Of a stretch of 64,000 nt of DNA, positions 26,518-42,103 are shown one piece after another. The position numbers were made by a program, and so were the translations under genes. The notes under the pieces are model-generated. The model was not told the DNA's origin and searched no databases. It was given only the letters and a program-made list of their open reading frames with translations. The stretch's first letter is position 1. Every line of letters begins with the position of its first letter. Source of the stretch: an uncultured Aeriscardovia sp. (lineage in GTDB: Bacteria; Actinomycetota; Actinomycetes; Actinomycetales; Bifidobacteriaceae); NCBI GenBank assembly GCA_903789535.1, contig CAIFES010000001.1:349140-413139 (forward strand). Direction: 5' to 3'.

Positions 26518-26536
26518 TTGACGAAAGGACTTGATT

Positions 26537-26887
26537 ATGGCTTCCGAGAACAATGAGGATCTGAAGTGGAAGAGCTGGCAGGACTGGGTCACGCTCGTGG
26601 CAGGCGTCCTGCTCGCCATCAGCCCGGCATGGGCCGCCTACGGCAACGGCGCCGGCAAGACCTGGGCGATCATCGGCGGCATCGTGATGGCGTGCGTCGC
26701 CCTGTGGTCGCTCGCGACGGTCGGTTCCAAGGCCTCCGAGTGGACGCAGATCGTCATTGACATCATCATCTTCATCCTGCCGTGGTGCGTCGGCGCCGCA
26801 TCCGTGGCCGGCGGCTGGTGGATGTGGATCCTCGCCGTCATCGCCCTCATCATGGCCATCTGGTCAATGCAGGCACACAAGGAGTGA
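26537..26887 (+). CDS. SPW-repeat small integral membrane protein
   Basis: 116 residues from the ATG at 26537 (GAAAGGA 7 bp upstream). Four hydrophobic helices form two similar halves. WQDWVTLVAGVLLAISPAW in the first and WTQIVIDIIIFILPWCVG in the second carry the SPW-type motif (SPAW, LPW) of the SPW repeat family. The family is of unknown function and is common in actinobacteria and halophiles. An intrinsic terminator follows 28 bp after the stop, so the gene is monocistronic. The upstream hairpins suggest specific regulation. Confidence 0.82.
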   Translation: MASENNEDLKWKSWQDWVTLVAGVLLAISPAWAAYGNGAGKTWAIIGGIVMACVALWSLATVGSKASEWTQIVIDIIIFILPWCVGAASVAGGWWMWILAVIALIMAIWSMQAHKE

Positions 26888-27181: not shown

Positions 27182-27763
27182 ATGCGGCGTGGCGAAAAGG
27201 TTCGTCATCTCACCGATAAACGGATCCTGCGATCCGTGCTCGATATCGCCTTGTCAAAAGGCGAGCACGCCGTCACCATGGAATCCGTCTCCAAACAGTC
27301 CGGCGTGGCGAAAACCACCCTCTACCGGCGCTACAAAAACCGCGCAGACATGCTCGCCCAGCTCGAAAAAGGCGTGGAATCCAAGGACTTCGGCCCCTCC
27401 GGATTCGAGGCGACCCCCGCCGGTCTCGAAAAATACGCGCTCTGGCTCGAGACGACGTACGCGGATTACATCACCGTGCCGGAGATGGCCTCGCTCATGT
27501 TCGCGCGCACGCCGTTTCTGATGGCCGTCGGGCACAAGATCCTCTCCGAGCTGGTCACCGGCATGATCCGGCTCATCGAGGAAGGCCAGCGCGCAGGCGC
27601 GTTCCTGAGCCGCACGAAACCGGAACTCGCCGCGGACCTCATCGTCGGCGGTGTGCTGTTCGCCGCACAGGGCACCGACAAAATCACACAGGACATGATC
27701 CACGACGCCATCACCGCGGTCCTTCCGCAAACAACGCCTTCCCCCACATCAAATTCGAAGTAA
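27182..27763 (+). CDS. TetR-family transcriptional regulator
   Basis: 193 residues from the ATG at 27182; a GTG one codon before is equally possible, and the tracked start at 27023 is just open leader. The N-terminal helix-turn-helix is clear: ILRSVLDIALSKGEHAVTMESVSKQSGVAKTTLYRRYKNRADML. The remainder is a helical ligand-binding and dimerisation domain with the length usual for TetR C-terminal domains. It would repress its target and release it on binding a small molecule. No obvious target gene adjoins; the preceding SPW gene is separated by a terminator. Confidence 0.88.
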   Translation: MRRGEKVRHLTDKRILRSVLDIALSKGEHAVTMESVSKQSGVAKTTLYRRYKNRADMLAQLEKGVESKDFGPSGFEATPAGLEKYALWLETTYADYITVPEMASLMFARTPFLMAVGHKILSELVTGMIRLIEEGQRAGAFLSRTKPELAADLIVGGVLFAAQGTDKITQDMIHDAITAVLPQTTPSPTSNSK

Positions 27764-27832: not shown

Positions 27833-27906
27833 AAAAAGGCGACCAATCGGTCGCCTTCATCATCTTCATTTGTGTCCCCGCAGGGACTCGAACCCTGGAC
27901 ACGCGG
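27833..27906 (-). repeat. Distal attachment-site repeat: orphan tRNA-Lys 3' fragment with terminator
   Basis: 72 of 74 bases match 29831-29904. The fragment covers the tRNA T-arm, the variable region, the 3' side of the anticodon stem and the downstream hairpin GGCGACC-AATC-GGTCGCC with its T-run (minus strand). Similarity stops abruptly at the anticodon loop, after which the sequence is unrelated to a tRNA. Differences are C to T in the terminator loop and in the acceptor stem. Confidence 0.88.
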
Positions 27907-28029
27907 TTCACGATTCCGAGCCATCAGGGCGAGAAAGTTTCCGGCCCAGGTCAGAAACTCAACAGAACTCCCCCAAGGCGGAGTAGTCACTGCGCAGTAT
28001 CACTGCAGGCCTTGTGCTGGTCAGGCAGT

Positions 28030-28599
28030 TCACCGAATAACGGCGAAACCTCCATTCCAGCTGATCTGCTTGCGGGCAGCGAGAGTCATCTCCAAGAAAC
28101 CGGTGGCCTCAAGCTCACGCGCACGCTTCAAGCTTCCAGCATCAATCACCTGAAGCGGGCTGTCCGACAGGGCGGACTGGAGGATCTGCTTCGCCTCCTG
28201 GCTGTCACCCGCGACGAGGACGGTCGTCTTGTCGGTACCGATCACCGCGTTCTGAAGGGTCGCCGCAAAATTCGTGTTGAAAGCCTTGAGGACATGACTG
28301 TCCGGCAGTTTCTTCTGAAGTTGTTGCGCCGCAGAACTGTCGGAGGGAACCTCAAGCCCATCCCAGGTCTGGAAATCGACCGGGTTGGTGATATCGACAA
28401 CGACCTTGCCAGCCAGCTGCTGCCCGTACTTTTCGACGAGTGAATCTAGAGCGGCGTAGGGAACGGCAAGAATAATGATGTCCCCAAACGTGTCTGCCTC
28501 GTCTTTGGATGTGTAGTAGGTGACGTCATTCCCCGCCACCTCGAGGTTCTTGCCAATCGCCGAACCCATGTTCCCATGGCCGAGGATCGTGATCTGCAT
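28030..28599 (-). CDS. NADPH-dependent F420 reductase-like oxidoreductase
   Basis: 189 residues. It opens MQITILGHGNMGSAIGKNL, a Rossmann dinucleotide loop (GxGxxG variant), followed by IIILAVPYAALDSLVEKYGQQL and VVDITNPV, the pattern of F420-dependent NADP reductase (FNO)-like NAD(P)-binding proteins. FGxxFNTNFAATL near the middle fits the family. In organisms without F420 these act as NAD(P)H oxidoreductases of unknown substrate. It is divergent from an HxlR regulator, with palindromes between them, so it is the likely regulated target. It is the first gene of the tRNA-Lys island. Confidence 0.85.
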   Translation of the reverse strand: MQITILGHGNMGSAIGKNLEVAGNDVTYYTSKDEADTFGDIIILAVPYAALDSLVEKYGQQLAGKVVVDITNPVDFQTWDGLEVPSDSSAAQQLQKKLPDSHVLKAFNTNFAATLQNAVIGTDKTTVLVAGDSQEAKQILQSALSDSPLQVIDAGSLKRARELEATGFLEMTLAARKQISWNGGFAVIR

Positions 28600-28659
28600 A
28601 GTTGTCTCCTTTCACTATCTATGCTTTTCTAACTGACTGCTCCATCATGAGCCAAAAAG

Positions 28660-28690
28660 TTACTATTAGTAAGTAGGCACTTTTAAGTGC
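28660..28690. promoter_or_regulatory. Two palindromes in the hxlR/reductase divergent promoter region
   Basis: TTACTATTAGTAA (28660-28672) is a perfect 13-bp palindrome, and GCACTTTTAAGTGC (28677-28690) is an inverted repeat with a 2-bp centre. They sit about 60-90 bp from both start codons. HxlR proteins bind such AT-rich dyads to control the divergent oxidoreductase and themselves. The core ACTATTAGT recurs, in reverse complement, at the end of hxlR. Confidence 0.6.
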
Positions 28691-28755
28691 GGTACACTCT
28701 ATTTGGTAAGAACTGATATTTGACACCAATCACGGCAAGAAAGAAGTTTTTCGCC

Positions 28756-29097
28756 ATGAAGAGATTAGCCCAGTTCGGATCCTGCCCGGTCGCCACAACC
28801 ATCTCCCTTCTGGACAGCGGGTGGAAGATTCTCATCATGCGTGATCTGCTCAAAGGCACAAAACGATACAGTCAGCTGCAAAAAAGCGTGAGCGGTATCA
28901 GCCAAAAGATGCTGACGCAGAGTCTCAGACAGATGCAGGATGACGGCATCGTCCAGCGTCACTCATACCCCGTTATCCCGCCAAAAGTCGAATACAGTCT
29001 CACTGAGATGGGTGAGAGCATGCGACCAATCATCAATTCAATGCACGAGTGGGGAATGCACTACCTGTCCGACCATCCCCGCACAAACACCCACTAA
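28756..29097 (+). CDS. HxlR-family winged-helix regulator
   Basis: 113 residues from the ATG at 28756; the tracked TTG is 12 codons upstream and lacks an RBS. FGSCPVATTISLLDSGWKILIMRDLLKG is the HxlR signature, with the near-N-terminal Cys that in several family members senses quinones, aldehydes or oxidants. The wing follows in RYSQLQKSVSGISQKMLTQSLRQMQDDGIVQRHSY. It would act as a dimer and control the divergent F420-type reductase gene. The pair is a common detoxification-type cassette. Its lower GC than flanking DNA fits the island setting. Confidence 0.9.
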   Translation: MKRLAQFGSCPVATTISLLDSGWKILIMRDLLKGTKRYSQLQKSVSGISQKMLTQSLRQMQDDGIVQRHSYPVIPPKVEYSLTEMGESMRPIINSMHEWGMHYLSDHPRTNTH

Positions 29098-29102
29098 TAG
29101 TG
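29092..29102. promoter_or_regulatory. Second copy of the HxlR-site core at the hxlR stop codon
   Basis: CACTAATAGTG is a perfect 11-bp palindrome spanning the TAA stop. Its 9-bp core ACTAATAGT is the exact reverse complement of ACTATTAGT in the 28660 palindrome. It may be an auxiliary operator, or chance given its low complexity. Confidence 0.4.
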
Positions 29103-29298
29103 ACGCTGACTTTCAAGCCATCTATGGCCACACAACTGGCTGCGTGGAAGTCATTATGAGCGCAGGGGCATGCAGTGAGAGTGAGAGAACCTTTTCATTG
29201 CTGATAACTCTGCCGACCCCCAAGAATCGTAAGGCCATCAGCAACAAAGCAGTCCCCCTGACCCGCAACCCCGGTTCCTACCGCACAATCAATTGCAT

Positions 29299-29440
29299 GA
29301 AAAAGGGAGTGCCCAGCCGCAAGGCTAAGGCACTCCCCTAAACCGAAGGACGGATAGTGCGCCCTACCGGGAGGACACCACCTGAAAAGCTCAATGCCCG
29401 CGCTTACGACAGGTGGGTGGAATTGCCCTCACTGGCACTT
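29299..29440 (-). ncRNA. Candidate structured non-coding RNA (~140 nt) with terminator
   Basis: On the minus strand an extended -10 (TGATATGAT, 29452-29444) would start transcription near 29437. The transcript contains a CCACCTG/CAGGTGG pairing and ends at a strong terminator: GGGAGTGCC...GGCACTCCC (9 bp) enclosing AGCC-GCAA-GGCT with a GNRA loop, then TTTTT (29304-29300). No ORF fits inside. It is divergent from a 53-residue hydrophobic peptide gene. A clear -35 is lacking, and no Rfam family was recognised. It may alternatively be the tail of a degraded repeat. Confidence 0.45.
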
Positions 29441-29567
29441 TTGATCATATCACCGGCCATCCTCGTACGCCGATAGCATGGTACATGGCCGGTGCCCAGT
29501 GGAATGGGCAAAAGCCGACTCGCCCGGTCCGCCCGGGCCGGGTGGAACCGATAAGAGGAGTGGTCTT

Positions 29568-29729
29568 ATGAACGGCCACGATCAAGGTAGAAGATCCGGC
29601 GGCGACACCGCATGGATCGGGACAGTACTGGCAATCCTCGCATGGAGGGCCGGTCCGATCACGGCGGGGATAGCCCTGCTCGTCCTTATCATCTGGCTGA
29701 TCGCCGCGTGGCGGTCTGACAGAAGATAA
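29568..29729 (+). CDS. Small hydrophobic peptide (53 aa) of the island
   Basis: Starts at the ATG at 29568 with AGAGGAG 7-8 bp upstream; the tracked ORF is longer but its upstream part is GC-rich leader. A polar N-terminus (MNGHDQGRRSGGD) precedes one or two hydrophobic stretches (WIGTVLAILAW, GIALLVLIIWLIAAW) and a basic end (RSDRR). Size and layout resemble single-pass membrane peptides, including type I toxins, but no family was recognised. The leader contains GC-rich inverted repeats (GCCCA...TGGGC) close to the RBS, and a terminator follows immediately. Confidence 0.6.
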   Translation: MNGHDQGRRSGGDTAWIGTVLAILAWRAGPITAGIALLVLIIWLIAAWRSDRR

Positions 29730-29736
29730 ACAGTCA

Positions 29737-29780
29737 AAGCCCGGCATTCGCGGTCGCATGATCGTGATGCCGGGCTTATT
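29737..29780 (+). terminator. Terminator after the small hydrophobic peptide gene
   Basis: AAGCCCGGCAT pairs perfectly with ATGCCGGGCTT (11 bp) around a 19-nt loop. The T-run is poor (ATTGTG), so efficiency is uncertain. Confidence 0.65.
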
Positions 29781-29829
29781 GTGTCACGCACAGGCTCCGC
29801 CAACATGCTCGGCACCGTTAGCCAATAAC

Positions 29830-29853
29830 AAAAAAGGCGACCAACCGGTCGCC
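29830..29853 (-). terminator. Terminator of tRNA-Lys
   Basis: GGCGACC-AACC-GGTCGCC stem-loop followed on the minus strand by TTTTTT, 18 bp after the tRNA 3' end. It is part of the 74-bp direct repeat, so the orphan copy at 27833 carries the same hairpin. Confidence 0.9.
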
Positions 29854-29904
29854 TTCATCATCTTCATTTGTGCCCCCGCAGGGACTCGAACCCTGGACAC
29901 GCGG
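29831..29904 (-). repeat. Proximal attachment-site repeat within tRNA-Lys and its terminator
   Basis: The counterpart of 27833-27906 (72/74 identical). It restores an intact tRNA 3' end from the anticodon stem through the acceptor and includes the terminator, as expected when an integrating element carries a replacement tRNA 3' segment. Confidence 0.88.
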
Positions 29905-29944
29905 ATTAAGAGTCCGCTGCTCTAGCCAGCTGAGCTACAGGGGC
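29871..29944 (-). tRNA. tRNA-Lys (anticodon CTT)
   Basis: 74 nt on the minus strand. Acceptor GCCCCTG pairs with CGGGGGC (one GT pair). D-arm GCTCAGCTGGCTAGAGC, anticodon arm GCGGACTCTTAATCCGC with CTT at positions 34-36, and T-arm CCAGGGTTCGAGTCCCTG are all canonical. The 3' CCA is not encoded. It served as the integration site of the 2-kb island downstream of its 3' end. Confidence 0.96.
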
Positions 29945-30075: not shown

Positions 30076-31965
30076 TCAGTCCACGATGCGCGGCATCGAG
30101 GTGGTCAGCGACTTCGTCAGATGCAGGTGCAGCAGACCGGCGCCGGCATGCACCTCGCTCATCTTGAGCTGCACCGTGCGCTGATCCTCCGGCAGCGTGT
30201 CGTCATCGGTGACGGTCGCCGGCGACTTGACGGGCAGGATCACCAGATCCTCGAGCTTTGTGCCCGCGCCCTCGGCGATCTGTGCCGCCTTGGCGAGGCT
30301 CGGCTCGTAGTCGTCACGCTTCGTCACACGCTCGGGTGGCACGCCGTACGACTGCTGGCACAGTCCCTCCACGCGCGAGAGGATGGACTGGCCGCGCAGG
30401 TCGGCGGGCTTGTGCGCGTTGGCATTGGCCTGATGTCCCTGGGCCGCGGTGAGCGTGTCCATCAGAGCGTCAAGCTGGCCAGTCAGCTCGTCGCCGCCCT
30501 GCTCGTACAGGTTGGTCAGGGCCATCGGGCGCAGACCGTCCTTCCTGCCGCGCTCGCGCAGCGCGTCGACCTTACCCTCATCGCCCGTCCACAGGTTGAT
30601 GAGCGGGAAGGTGGGGATGCCGGAATTCTCCAGACGATGGATGTGGTGCGTGTACCGCCAGCCAAGGTGCGGCGTGTCCCACGTGGAGGCGCGGGCCACG
30701 ATCACCGCGGCGCTGGGCCAGTCGAGCCCGTAATAACGGCAGGCGATGTCGAGGAACTTCTGTGCGCCGGCGTCGGTGCCGTAACCGGCCTCGACCACCA
30801 CCACGTCGTGCAGGCTCTGCGCGGTCTCGATGGCCACGAGCGAAGGGATGCCGAGCGAGACGTTGCCGAACGGGCCGCAATGCACGTAGACCGGCGAGCC
30901 GCCGCGCGTCTGCAGCAGCGCGGGCTGGATGGAGTCGGACAGCAGCCGCAGCACACGGTCGATATCGACCACGTCCTTGGCGAGCACGACGGTGCCGTCG
31001 GCCTTCTGGCCCACCACCATGCGCGAGATCCGCCGGCGCAGCTCCTCCACCGAGCGCGAGAGGGTGACAATCTCCATCATCTCGCTCGTCGGCGTGAGAA
31101 CGGTCGTCTCTGGATAGCCTCCGACGCGCCGGCCGTCAGCCACGCTCTGCCCGACGGCGATCTTGCGGCTCTCCTTGCTCGGCAGCTCGGAGACGCGCGG
31201 CAGGAGCATGGTGCCCGGCTCCTCGGCGTCCTCGAGCAGCGCCTTCTCGCCGCGCACCACGATGAGGTTCTGCGCGGTGGCGATGCGGCTCATCTCCCCG
31301 AAGAGGCCCCAGTCGGCCAGCTCCGGCTGCGACAGGCTCGCCTTGCCCGCACCGGAGGCGCCGCCCTTGCTGCCCGCGGAGGTGATGCCCATGCTCGGCT
31401 GGCGCAGCACCGCGCCGGCATCGATACCGTTAGCGCGCAGGGCGTCCACCAGGGCCATGAGCGCGGTGGTCTTGCCCTCGCCGCGAGAGGCCTTGAGCGG
31501 GGTGTCGGAGGTGACGAGCAGGATGACGCCGTGCTTGTGCGGCGCCTCCGGGCTCGCCTTGAGATGCTCGAGCCAGCCGTACGCATCGATCTTGGCGTTC
31601 TTGCGGCCGTAGGGCACCATGAAATCGTTGAAAGCAGCCGCCACGGCAGGATCCGAGCTGGTGGGCGGCAGCTGGTTGGCAAGGCCGTTGGTGAAGCTGC
31701 GGCGCTGTGCGGCCGAGCCCGCGCCCTCGCTCTGGAACTGGCGCTGCAGCACGGCGCGCGCGGCGGCCACGGCAGCGACGGCCGAGGCAGCCTCCTTGCT
31801 CATTCCGTCCTGTCCGGCCTCAGTGCCGGAGACAGTGGAGGAAGCGGCGCTGCCAGAACCCGTATTGTTGCCAGAAACGCTGAAAGCAGCGCCGGCGTTG
31901 CTGCCCTCGGACGCTGCGGGATGGGACTCGAACGGTGTGTTGATCGGCTGGTTGTCTGTGCTCAT
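30076..31965 (-). CDS. fhs: Formate-tetrahydrofolate ligase
   Basis: 629 residues from the ATG at 31965 (MSTDNQPINTPF); the track start is 35 codons upstream. It makes 10-formyl-THF from formate, THF and ATP in one-carbon metabolism, in the cytoplasm. ASRGEGKTTALMALVDAL is the P-loop (~160), and GSKGGASGAGKASLSQPELADWG, SEMMEIVTLSRSVEELRRRI, YVHCGPFGNVSLGIPS and VVEAGYGTDAGAQKF align with FTHFS signatures, although several are divergent from the clostridial type. About 70-100 extra N-terminal residues, Ala/Ser/Gly-rich, exceed the usual ~556. Conservation of the P-loop supports activity. It lies next to tRNA-Lys. Confidence 0.88.
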   Translation of the reverse strand: MSTDNQPINTPFESHPAASEGSNAGAAFSVSGNNTGSGSAASSTVSGTEAGQDGMSKEAASAVAAVAAARAVLQRQFQSEGAGSAAQRRSFTNGLANQLPPTSSDPAVAAAFNDFMVPYGRKNAKIDAYGWLEHLKASPEAPHKHGVILLVTSDTPLKASRGEGKTTALMALVDALRANGIDAGAVLRQPSMGITSAGSKGGASGAGKASLSQPELADWGLFGEMSRIATAQNLIVVRGEKALLEDAEEPGTMLLPRVSELPSKESRKIAVGQSVADGRRVGGYPETTVLTPTSEMMEIVTLSRSVEELRRRISRMVVGQKADGTVVLAKDVVDIDRVLRLLSDSIQPALLQTRGGSPVYVHCGPFGNVSLGIPSLVAIETAQSLHDVVVVEAGYGTDAGAQKFLDIACRYYGLDWPSAAVIVARASTWDTPHLGWRYTHHIHRLENSGIPTFPLINLWTGDEGKVDALRERGRKDGLRPMALTNLYEQGGDELTGQLDALMDTLTAAQGHQANANAHKPADLRGQSILSRVEGLCQQSYGVPPERVTKRDDYEPSLAKAAQIAEGAGTKLEDLVILPVKSPATVTDDDTLPEDQRTVQLKMSEVHAGAGLLHLHLTKSLTTSMPRIVD

Positions 31966-32136
31966 TGATCTCTTTTCGTCGATGAACGGGGATGGGGAGC
32001 CCCGCTGCCCATCTTCCAGCCTAAACAGGCCGGGTGGAATGTACCACCCGGCCCGTGTCGATGCCATCACATTGTCGATGCCGTCATATGACGGCTATAG
32101 ATGACGGCTGTCCTGTCACCTGGCCGTCACACGCCG

Positions 32137-41696: not shown

Positions 41697-41837
41697 GTTT
41701 CCAGACTATCGGGCGCGCGACGGACAGATATGTGGATTAGGTCAAAACCGACCGGATGGATCGGTGCAAGGCGGCTTAGGGAAAGACAGCTTCGGGAAAA
41801 GAAAAATAGAGACACGAAGAAGCAGCCTTGGAAAAAG

Positions 41838-41924
41838 AAAACTCCCGCGTACCCGACAGAGGCCACTTACCCTTGCTGCATTCCTGCCCTGGGGGGATTG
41901 GGTGACATATCGCCACGTGGGAGC
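41838..41924 (-). ncRNA. ffs: Small signal recognition particle RNA (4.5S-type)
   Basis: On the minus strand the apical SRP domain is intact: CCCCCCAGGGCAGGAATGCA, then GCAAGGGTAAGTGGCCT, matching the conserved GGCAGGAA / GCAGCAAGGGTAA tetraloop and Ffh-binding bulge of bacterial small SRP RNAs. The outer stem CTCCCACGT pairs with ACGCGGGAG and is followed by TTTTCTTTTT as terminator. Ends are approximate. It binds Ffh for co-translational membrane targeting. It occupies much of the 407-bp gap between the PAP2 and LTA-synthase-like genes; the remainder (41697-41837 and 41925-42103) shows no gene. Confidence 0.93.
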
Positions 41925-42103
41925 GTGTTTATGTTACCGCATGCGGATGAGATCCCGCAAACTACTGCACATGATCTCAGCCATGTCCGTTCATTACCTG
42001 CATCCGTCATCATCAGCTTTCTGGACTATGTTAGGCAGTTATTGTCTCTGCCGGGCTGATGAGACGGCAAAGGACAGACACGACTGGATAGGAGTGCAGA
42101 CGG

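Follow-up and report, generated by a model that had tools for sequence, protein, structure and literature searches.

CIMEs (cis-mobilizable elements) retain the att site at each end but have lost the genes for integration and transfer (PMC5704250). In Streptococcus salivarius, CIMEs that carry cargo have been reported at sizes of 1.2-13 kb, and 215 CIMEs were found at tRNA-Lys CTT in 303 Streptococcus agalactiae genomes (PMC7563491). The tRNA fragments left by integrated elements have been described as pervasive (PMC9897764), and anticodon-centred attachment sites count among the main classes in Islander (PMC4383910).

A segment in which ~1.9 kb of sequence is enclosed by two att-like repeats was examined in an uncultured Aeriscardovia sp., a member of a genus of four species. 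It is located in contig C1 of the 1.6-Mb genome assembly (14 contigs, 93% complete; G000), within the 64,000-nucleotide stretch of DNA that was analysed (the window). Both att-like sites are kept and recombination and transfer genes are all absent, as in a CIME. Like the CIMEs of S. agalactiae and S. salivarius (PMC5704250, PMC7563491), the segment carries a small cargo beside the 3' end of tRNA-Lys(CTT), and the site holds intact elements in sequence-related species. However, it stands alone, with no ICE or IME in tandem, it is not known to be mobilised in cis, and its host belongs to the Bifidobacteriaceae. The islands in Islander (PMC4383910) similarly have an intact tRNA at one end and a displaced 3' fragment in the right orientation at the other, with a break near the anticodon loop, but Islander demands an integrase inside the island, and the window segment has none.

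Repeats at the tRNA-Lys(CTT) gene

An intact tRNA-Lys(CTT) gene, the 3' half of which is the integration target (attB), was called by ARAGORN and Rfam at 29870-29944 on the minus strand. The 3' half and the terminator that follows it form the tRNA-proximal att-like end (29831-29904, minus), and a displaced, orphan copy of both forms the distal one (27833-27906, minus), as seen in the repeat match and in a genus-wide alignment. These 74-bp direct repeats are equal at 72 of 74 bases and lie 1998 bp apart, start to start, confirming an earlier description of the locus from the sequence alone (the sequence-only reading), in which an orphan 3' copy of the tRNA with its terminator had been placed at this distance. 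A terminator-like hairpin was predicted in each copy, at 27835-27858 in the displaced repeat and at 29833-29856 in that of the tRNA (both minus). One of the two mismatches is in the terminator loop (position 27847; T in the orphan, C in the tRNA copy) and the other is in the acceptor stem (position 27875; again T in the orphan, C in the tRNA copy), where it reads as G71A on the strand of the tRNA. An identity of 72/74 adjoining the cognate tRNA is far above chance. A search of the 1.6-Mb assembly gave no further copy of the tRNA-Lys(CTT) 3' half, and the remaining matches were to tRNA-Lys(TTT) and tRNA-Met.

The repeat identity had been thought to end inside the anticodon loop. It was found to include the final pair of the anticodon stem and to stop there, a single base away from the loop; the plus-strand end of the match, GCGG, is followed by A in the tRNA and by T in the orphan. 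Beyond the break, the orphan shared no significant similarity with the 5' half of the tRNA (local P 0.81; end-anchored P 0.16), and thus reads as a displaced 3' fragment; the possibility that it is a decayed full tRNA gene was dropped for want of a significant continuation into the 5' half. An intact tRNA borders the segment on one side and a cognate fragment of like orientation on the other, which is the layout of a tRNA-targeted island.

Flanks and islands at the same tRNA in relatives

The neighbour on the 5' side of the tRNA is the fhs gene (30076-32070, minus), encoding formate-tetrahydrofolate ligase. Of 27 loci examined in the family, 22 have fhs on the 5' side of tRNA-Lys(CTT), and this conserved gene order is thus seen as an old adjacency. 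The outer chromosomal flank, beyond the displaced repeat, includes genes for an SPW-domain protein (26531-26887, plus) and a TetR-type regulator (27182-27763, plus). Both are shared with another species of the genus, G003 (80% and 61% identity, respectively), in which an island of 18.5 kb has its displaced fragment next to the TetR gene. A bacterial small SRP RNA gene (Rfam RF00169) is also present in the window, at 41833-41929 on the minus strand.

In two of the three other species in the genus, G001 and G003, this tRNA-Lys was also found to be occupied by an island, larger than the window segment and delimited by the same 3' half of the tRNA. The island in G001 extends from tRNA-Lys(CTT) to a 41-bp displaced copy in the same orientation 44 kb away, and an intact gene for a tyrosine integrase of 326 aa (PF00589, 2.6e-20) begins ~0.2 kb inside this copy. 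Genes for HTH_36/Rep-like, ParA and DnaB proteins are located at the tRNA end. This arrangement is similar to that of elements in a survey of AICEs (PMC3218068), which carry an integrase at one att site together with replication and transfer genes, whereas the window segment has no integrase, HTH/Rep-like, ParA or DnaB genes. In G003, a 39-bp displaced copy lies 18.5 kb from tRNA-Lys, and the integrase is truncated, sharing 43% identity with that of G001 over the N-terminal 163 residues, after which the sequence is that of an ABC transporter. At this point in the 18.5-kb island (L018:9000-10477), the integrase is cut off and directly followed by part of an ABC-transporter ATPase, marking a deletion junction. 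In the draft genome of the remaining species, G002, the locus is free of an island, and the tRNA-Lys(CTT) gene is without its 3' half (L019:2640-2687, contig C53). The half tRNA may reflect imprecise loss of an element or, as the genome is a draft, an assembly fault.

Two Bifidobacterium-type genomes have the same kind of end. In G115, 46 kb separate an intact tRNA-Lys(CTT) from a displaced copy, and an integrase is located 0.2 kb from this copy; G111 has the same end structure, with the tRNA on another contig. In all four relatives the match ends in the anticodon loop, two bases in for G001, three for G003 and five for G115 and G111. The flanks of 19 relatives of the G001 integrase were also examined, and seven, in addition to the G003 relic, adjoin a sequence like a tRNA 3' half; with the type assigned by eye, five of these are of tRNA-Lys(TTT) type by the loop and two adjoin tRNA-Met. 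Clade members adjoining displaced tRNA-Lys-type fragments are found at L163, L165, L167, L175 and L178. As integrases of the G001 clade are located at displaced tRNA-Lys fragments, the tRNA-Lys 3' half is an established target of this clade in the family, and the site itself is used by integrase-bearing elements in G001, G003, G111 and G115.

The repeats in the window include the terminator and are therefore longer than the 41-bp and 39-bp repeats in G001 and G003. A terminator is also present at both ends in G003, though more diverged, unlike in G001. The cargo and ends of the window segment shared no similarity with the elements in G001 and G003. Although the G001 element at the same tRNA is ICE-like, no interior sequence is common to it and the window segment, and descent from that very element family is thus conjectural.

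These comparisons uphold the view that the segment is a tRNA-integrated island, since islands bounded by the same 3' half are found at the same site in G001, with an intact integrase, and in G003, with a truncated one and the same outer flank as in the window. The sequence-only reading had also predicted what the tRNA-Lys locus of relatives should contain. The larger, integrase-bearing islands were found, in G001 and G003, but a clean empty tRNA-Lys(CTT) site was not. One genome per species was compared, and the TetR gene, used as a marker of the empty site across 189 genomes, had an ortholog only in G003; this flank is thus confined to G000 and G003, which accounts for the missing empty site.

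Cargo genes

The cargo was found to consist of an HxlR/reductase pair and a 53-aa hydrophobic peptide, with no recombinase, in ORF, Pfam and PHROGs searches, in line with what had been read from the sequence. No recombinase ORF or relic was detected in 27833-29944. A search for an integrase relic inside the segment, with the G001 integrase as the query, returned chance matches only, and nothing informative was found in the segment using PHROGs and PADLOC. The GC content of the segment is 55% compared with 61% for the window, but 2-kb windows vary enough to include this value, and the segment thus does not stand out by composition alone.

The reductase gene (28030-28599, minus) encodes an NAD(P)-binding oxidoreductase of 189 aa with an F420_oxidored-type Rossmann fold (Pfam PF03807). 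It scores under the NCBIfam cut-off for npdG, the true NADPH:F420 reductase, and the nearest PDB entry is 2raf, a putative dinucleotide-binding oxidoreductase (E 1.7e-77). The divergent gene (28756-29097, plus) encodes an HxlR-family regulator (PF01638) that is related to HypR/YybR and RrpB-like, with a score under the NCBIfam cut-off, and its HxlR domain carries an N-terminal Cys. The N-terminal Cys, the RrpB-like sequence and the divergent NAD(P)H oxidoreductase are features shared with HxlR/DUF24 redox regulators (HypR/YybR, YodB; RrpB). However, the oxidoreductase in the window is an F420_oxidored-type Rossmann protein and not a nitroreductase or azoreductase. By analogy with the family, the HxlR protein is probably a sensor of oxidative or electrophile stress that controls the oxidoreductase encoded divergently from it.

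Homologues with 65% identity to both proteins, in the same divergent layout, are found in Limosilactobacillus mucosae (L083). A phylogeny of 98 sequences placed the reductase in a Lactobacillaceae clade (support 99/89), apart from most bifidobacterial homologues. Reductases encoded in genomes of the host family had sequences identical to those of Bifidobacterium psychraerophilum and B. tsurumiense, which identifies the family as Bifidobacteriaceae. The reductase was absent from the other three species of the genus, and the cargo is species-specific within the genus. The Lactobacillaceae grouping, together with the absence from the rest of the genus, points to transfer of the reductase across phyla, the direction of which is presumed.

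The peptide gene (29568-29729, plus) encodes a 53-aa basic-hydrophobic membrane peptide and is preceded by a GC-rich structured leader (29486-29567, plus). The leader was defined by the fold (z -2.2 for 29340-29580) and by alignment with the leaders of paralogues, its 5' end being a putative one, and a TAGCAT box just upstream (29474-29479) may serve as the -10. At least three further copies of the peptide, at least two clear and one weaker, are encoded elsewhere in this genome (C2:171761-171922, C2:218544-218702 and C8:4677-4826; L195, L202 and L204). The family is also found at L196, L197, L198, L200 and L201, and has relatives in a Bifidobacterium-type clade, with up to three per genome. 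Members have a peptide of ~50 aa that is basic and hydrophobic, a structured leader and a hairpin directly after the stop codon, and the ribosome-binding site is inside a predicted hairpin, in which a few compensatory changes were seen. At L192:6348-7955 and its neighbours, one paralogue adjoins a predicted DNA methyltransferase gene and an unannotated gene cluster, and this cluster could be a restriction-modification or defence island.

The window peptide had no match in Pfam, NCBIfam, PHROGs or PADLOC, and the candidate RNA in the segment had no credible family in Rfam. For its size, hydrophobicity, multicopy state and structured leader, the peptide was considered a candidate for a type I toxin-antitoxin system, in which a toxic small membrane peptide is paired with an antisense RNA. 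A speculative and rather doubtful proposal is that the unit belongs to an undescribed multicopy Bifidobacteriaceae family, made up of a leader folded over the ribosome-binding site, a basic two-helix membrane peptide of ~50 aa and a terminator, and that it possibly acts as a type-I-toxin-like module stabilising an integrase-less remnant. As the peptide has paralogues elsewhere in the genome, this part of the cargo is of host-lineage type, and the segment, which also carries the Lactobacillaceae-like pair, is thus a mosaic.

Mobility and origin of the segment

The segment is very probably a decayed, CIME-like remnant of an element integrated at tRNA-Lys(CTT). The element would have entered the 3' half of the tRNA gene by site-specific recombination, presumably catalysed by a tyrosine integrase. 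From the anatomy, and from the same layout in relatives, it appears that the 3' half now completing the tRNA came with the element on integration, and that the original 3' half and terminator were displaced to the far end, beside the TetR gene. The integrase and any transfer genes would later have been lost, so that ~1.9 kb of cargo is left, with an att-like end on either side, although, as no relic of an integrase gene is left, we infer this loss. What remains would now be an ordinary, stably inherited gene cassette.

The sequence-only reading had offered two alternatives, a decayed island and a cargo unit moved in trans, and the first of these was the best fit. In the second, a minimal cargo unit would still excise and integrate using a tyrosine integrase from another element, and the intact cargo genes and the 72/74 identity of the two ends are consistent with this. 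However, none of the three tyrosine recombinase (PF00589) genes in the genome belongs to the tRNA-Lys clade, the best match to the G001 integrase having an E value of 4.5e-9 (8.7e-203 for G001 itself), and no serine recombinase was found, although the completeness of the assembly, at 93%, leaves room for a missed integrase. No second copy of the unit was detected when 189 genomes of the family, along with plasmids, phages and viral contigs, were searched. Excision would moreover place A71 opposite C2 in the tRNA, breaking the C2-G71 pair. A tRNA with A71 would still be recognised by ARAGORN, so the change would weaken the tRNA without showing it to be dead. The displaced copies in G001 and G003 are without such a change, and the G71A change in the window argues against continued cycling of the segment. 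Movement in trans is thus very unlikely; the segment is probably immobile by itself, and could move only as the passenger of a functional element integrated next to it.

It is scarcely probable that tRNA-Lys was duplicated in tandem, the outer copy then decaying and the cargo being inserted later by unrelated events. Tandem tRNA-Lys(CTT) genes do occur in some members of the family (G029, G041, G057, G081 and G124), and the terminator in the window has been duplicated too, but the orphan has no detectable 5' half, its break is beside the anticodon loop as in the integrase-bearing islands of G001, G003, G111 and G115, and insertion precisely at that break is unlikely. There is some chance, albeit a low one, that an ancestral integration is common to G000 and G003, and that the interior was later replaced while gene conversion held the two repeats similar; the cargo seen now would then never have moved as part of the element. 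The outer flank and the terminator at both ends, which G000 and G003 share, and the mosaic cargo would fit such a history, but no direct trace of conversion or replacement was seen, and a recent event explains the 72/74 identity equally well.

Candidates for the att sequence and cargo were also sought in phage, plasmid and viral collections, where the only candidates were phage tRNA genes, and viral contigs gave nothing; one reductase match (67%) was to a 760-kb Limosilactobacillus fermentum record. One of the three tyrosine recombinase genes in this genome (C4:38616-39140; L194:4203-5201) is located between hsdS-like and hsdM-like genes, and this gene order suggests a phase-variable type I restriction-modification locus.

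Viewed as a decayed remnant, the segment is a common kind of genomic scar, of a sort that island finders requiring an integrase would miss. The tRNA-Lys(CTT) gene is a recurrent integration site in the Bifidobacteriaceae, and one small genus includes several states of decay: one element has an intact integrase, another has a truncated one, and the third is a cargo remnant with none. In this last state, a redox gene pair of Lactobacillaceae type can persist next to a tRNA gene as a cassette.
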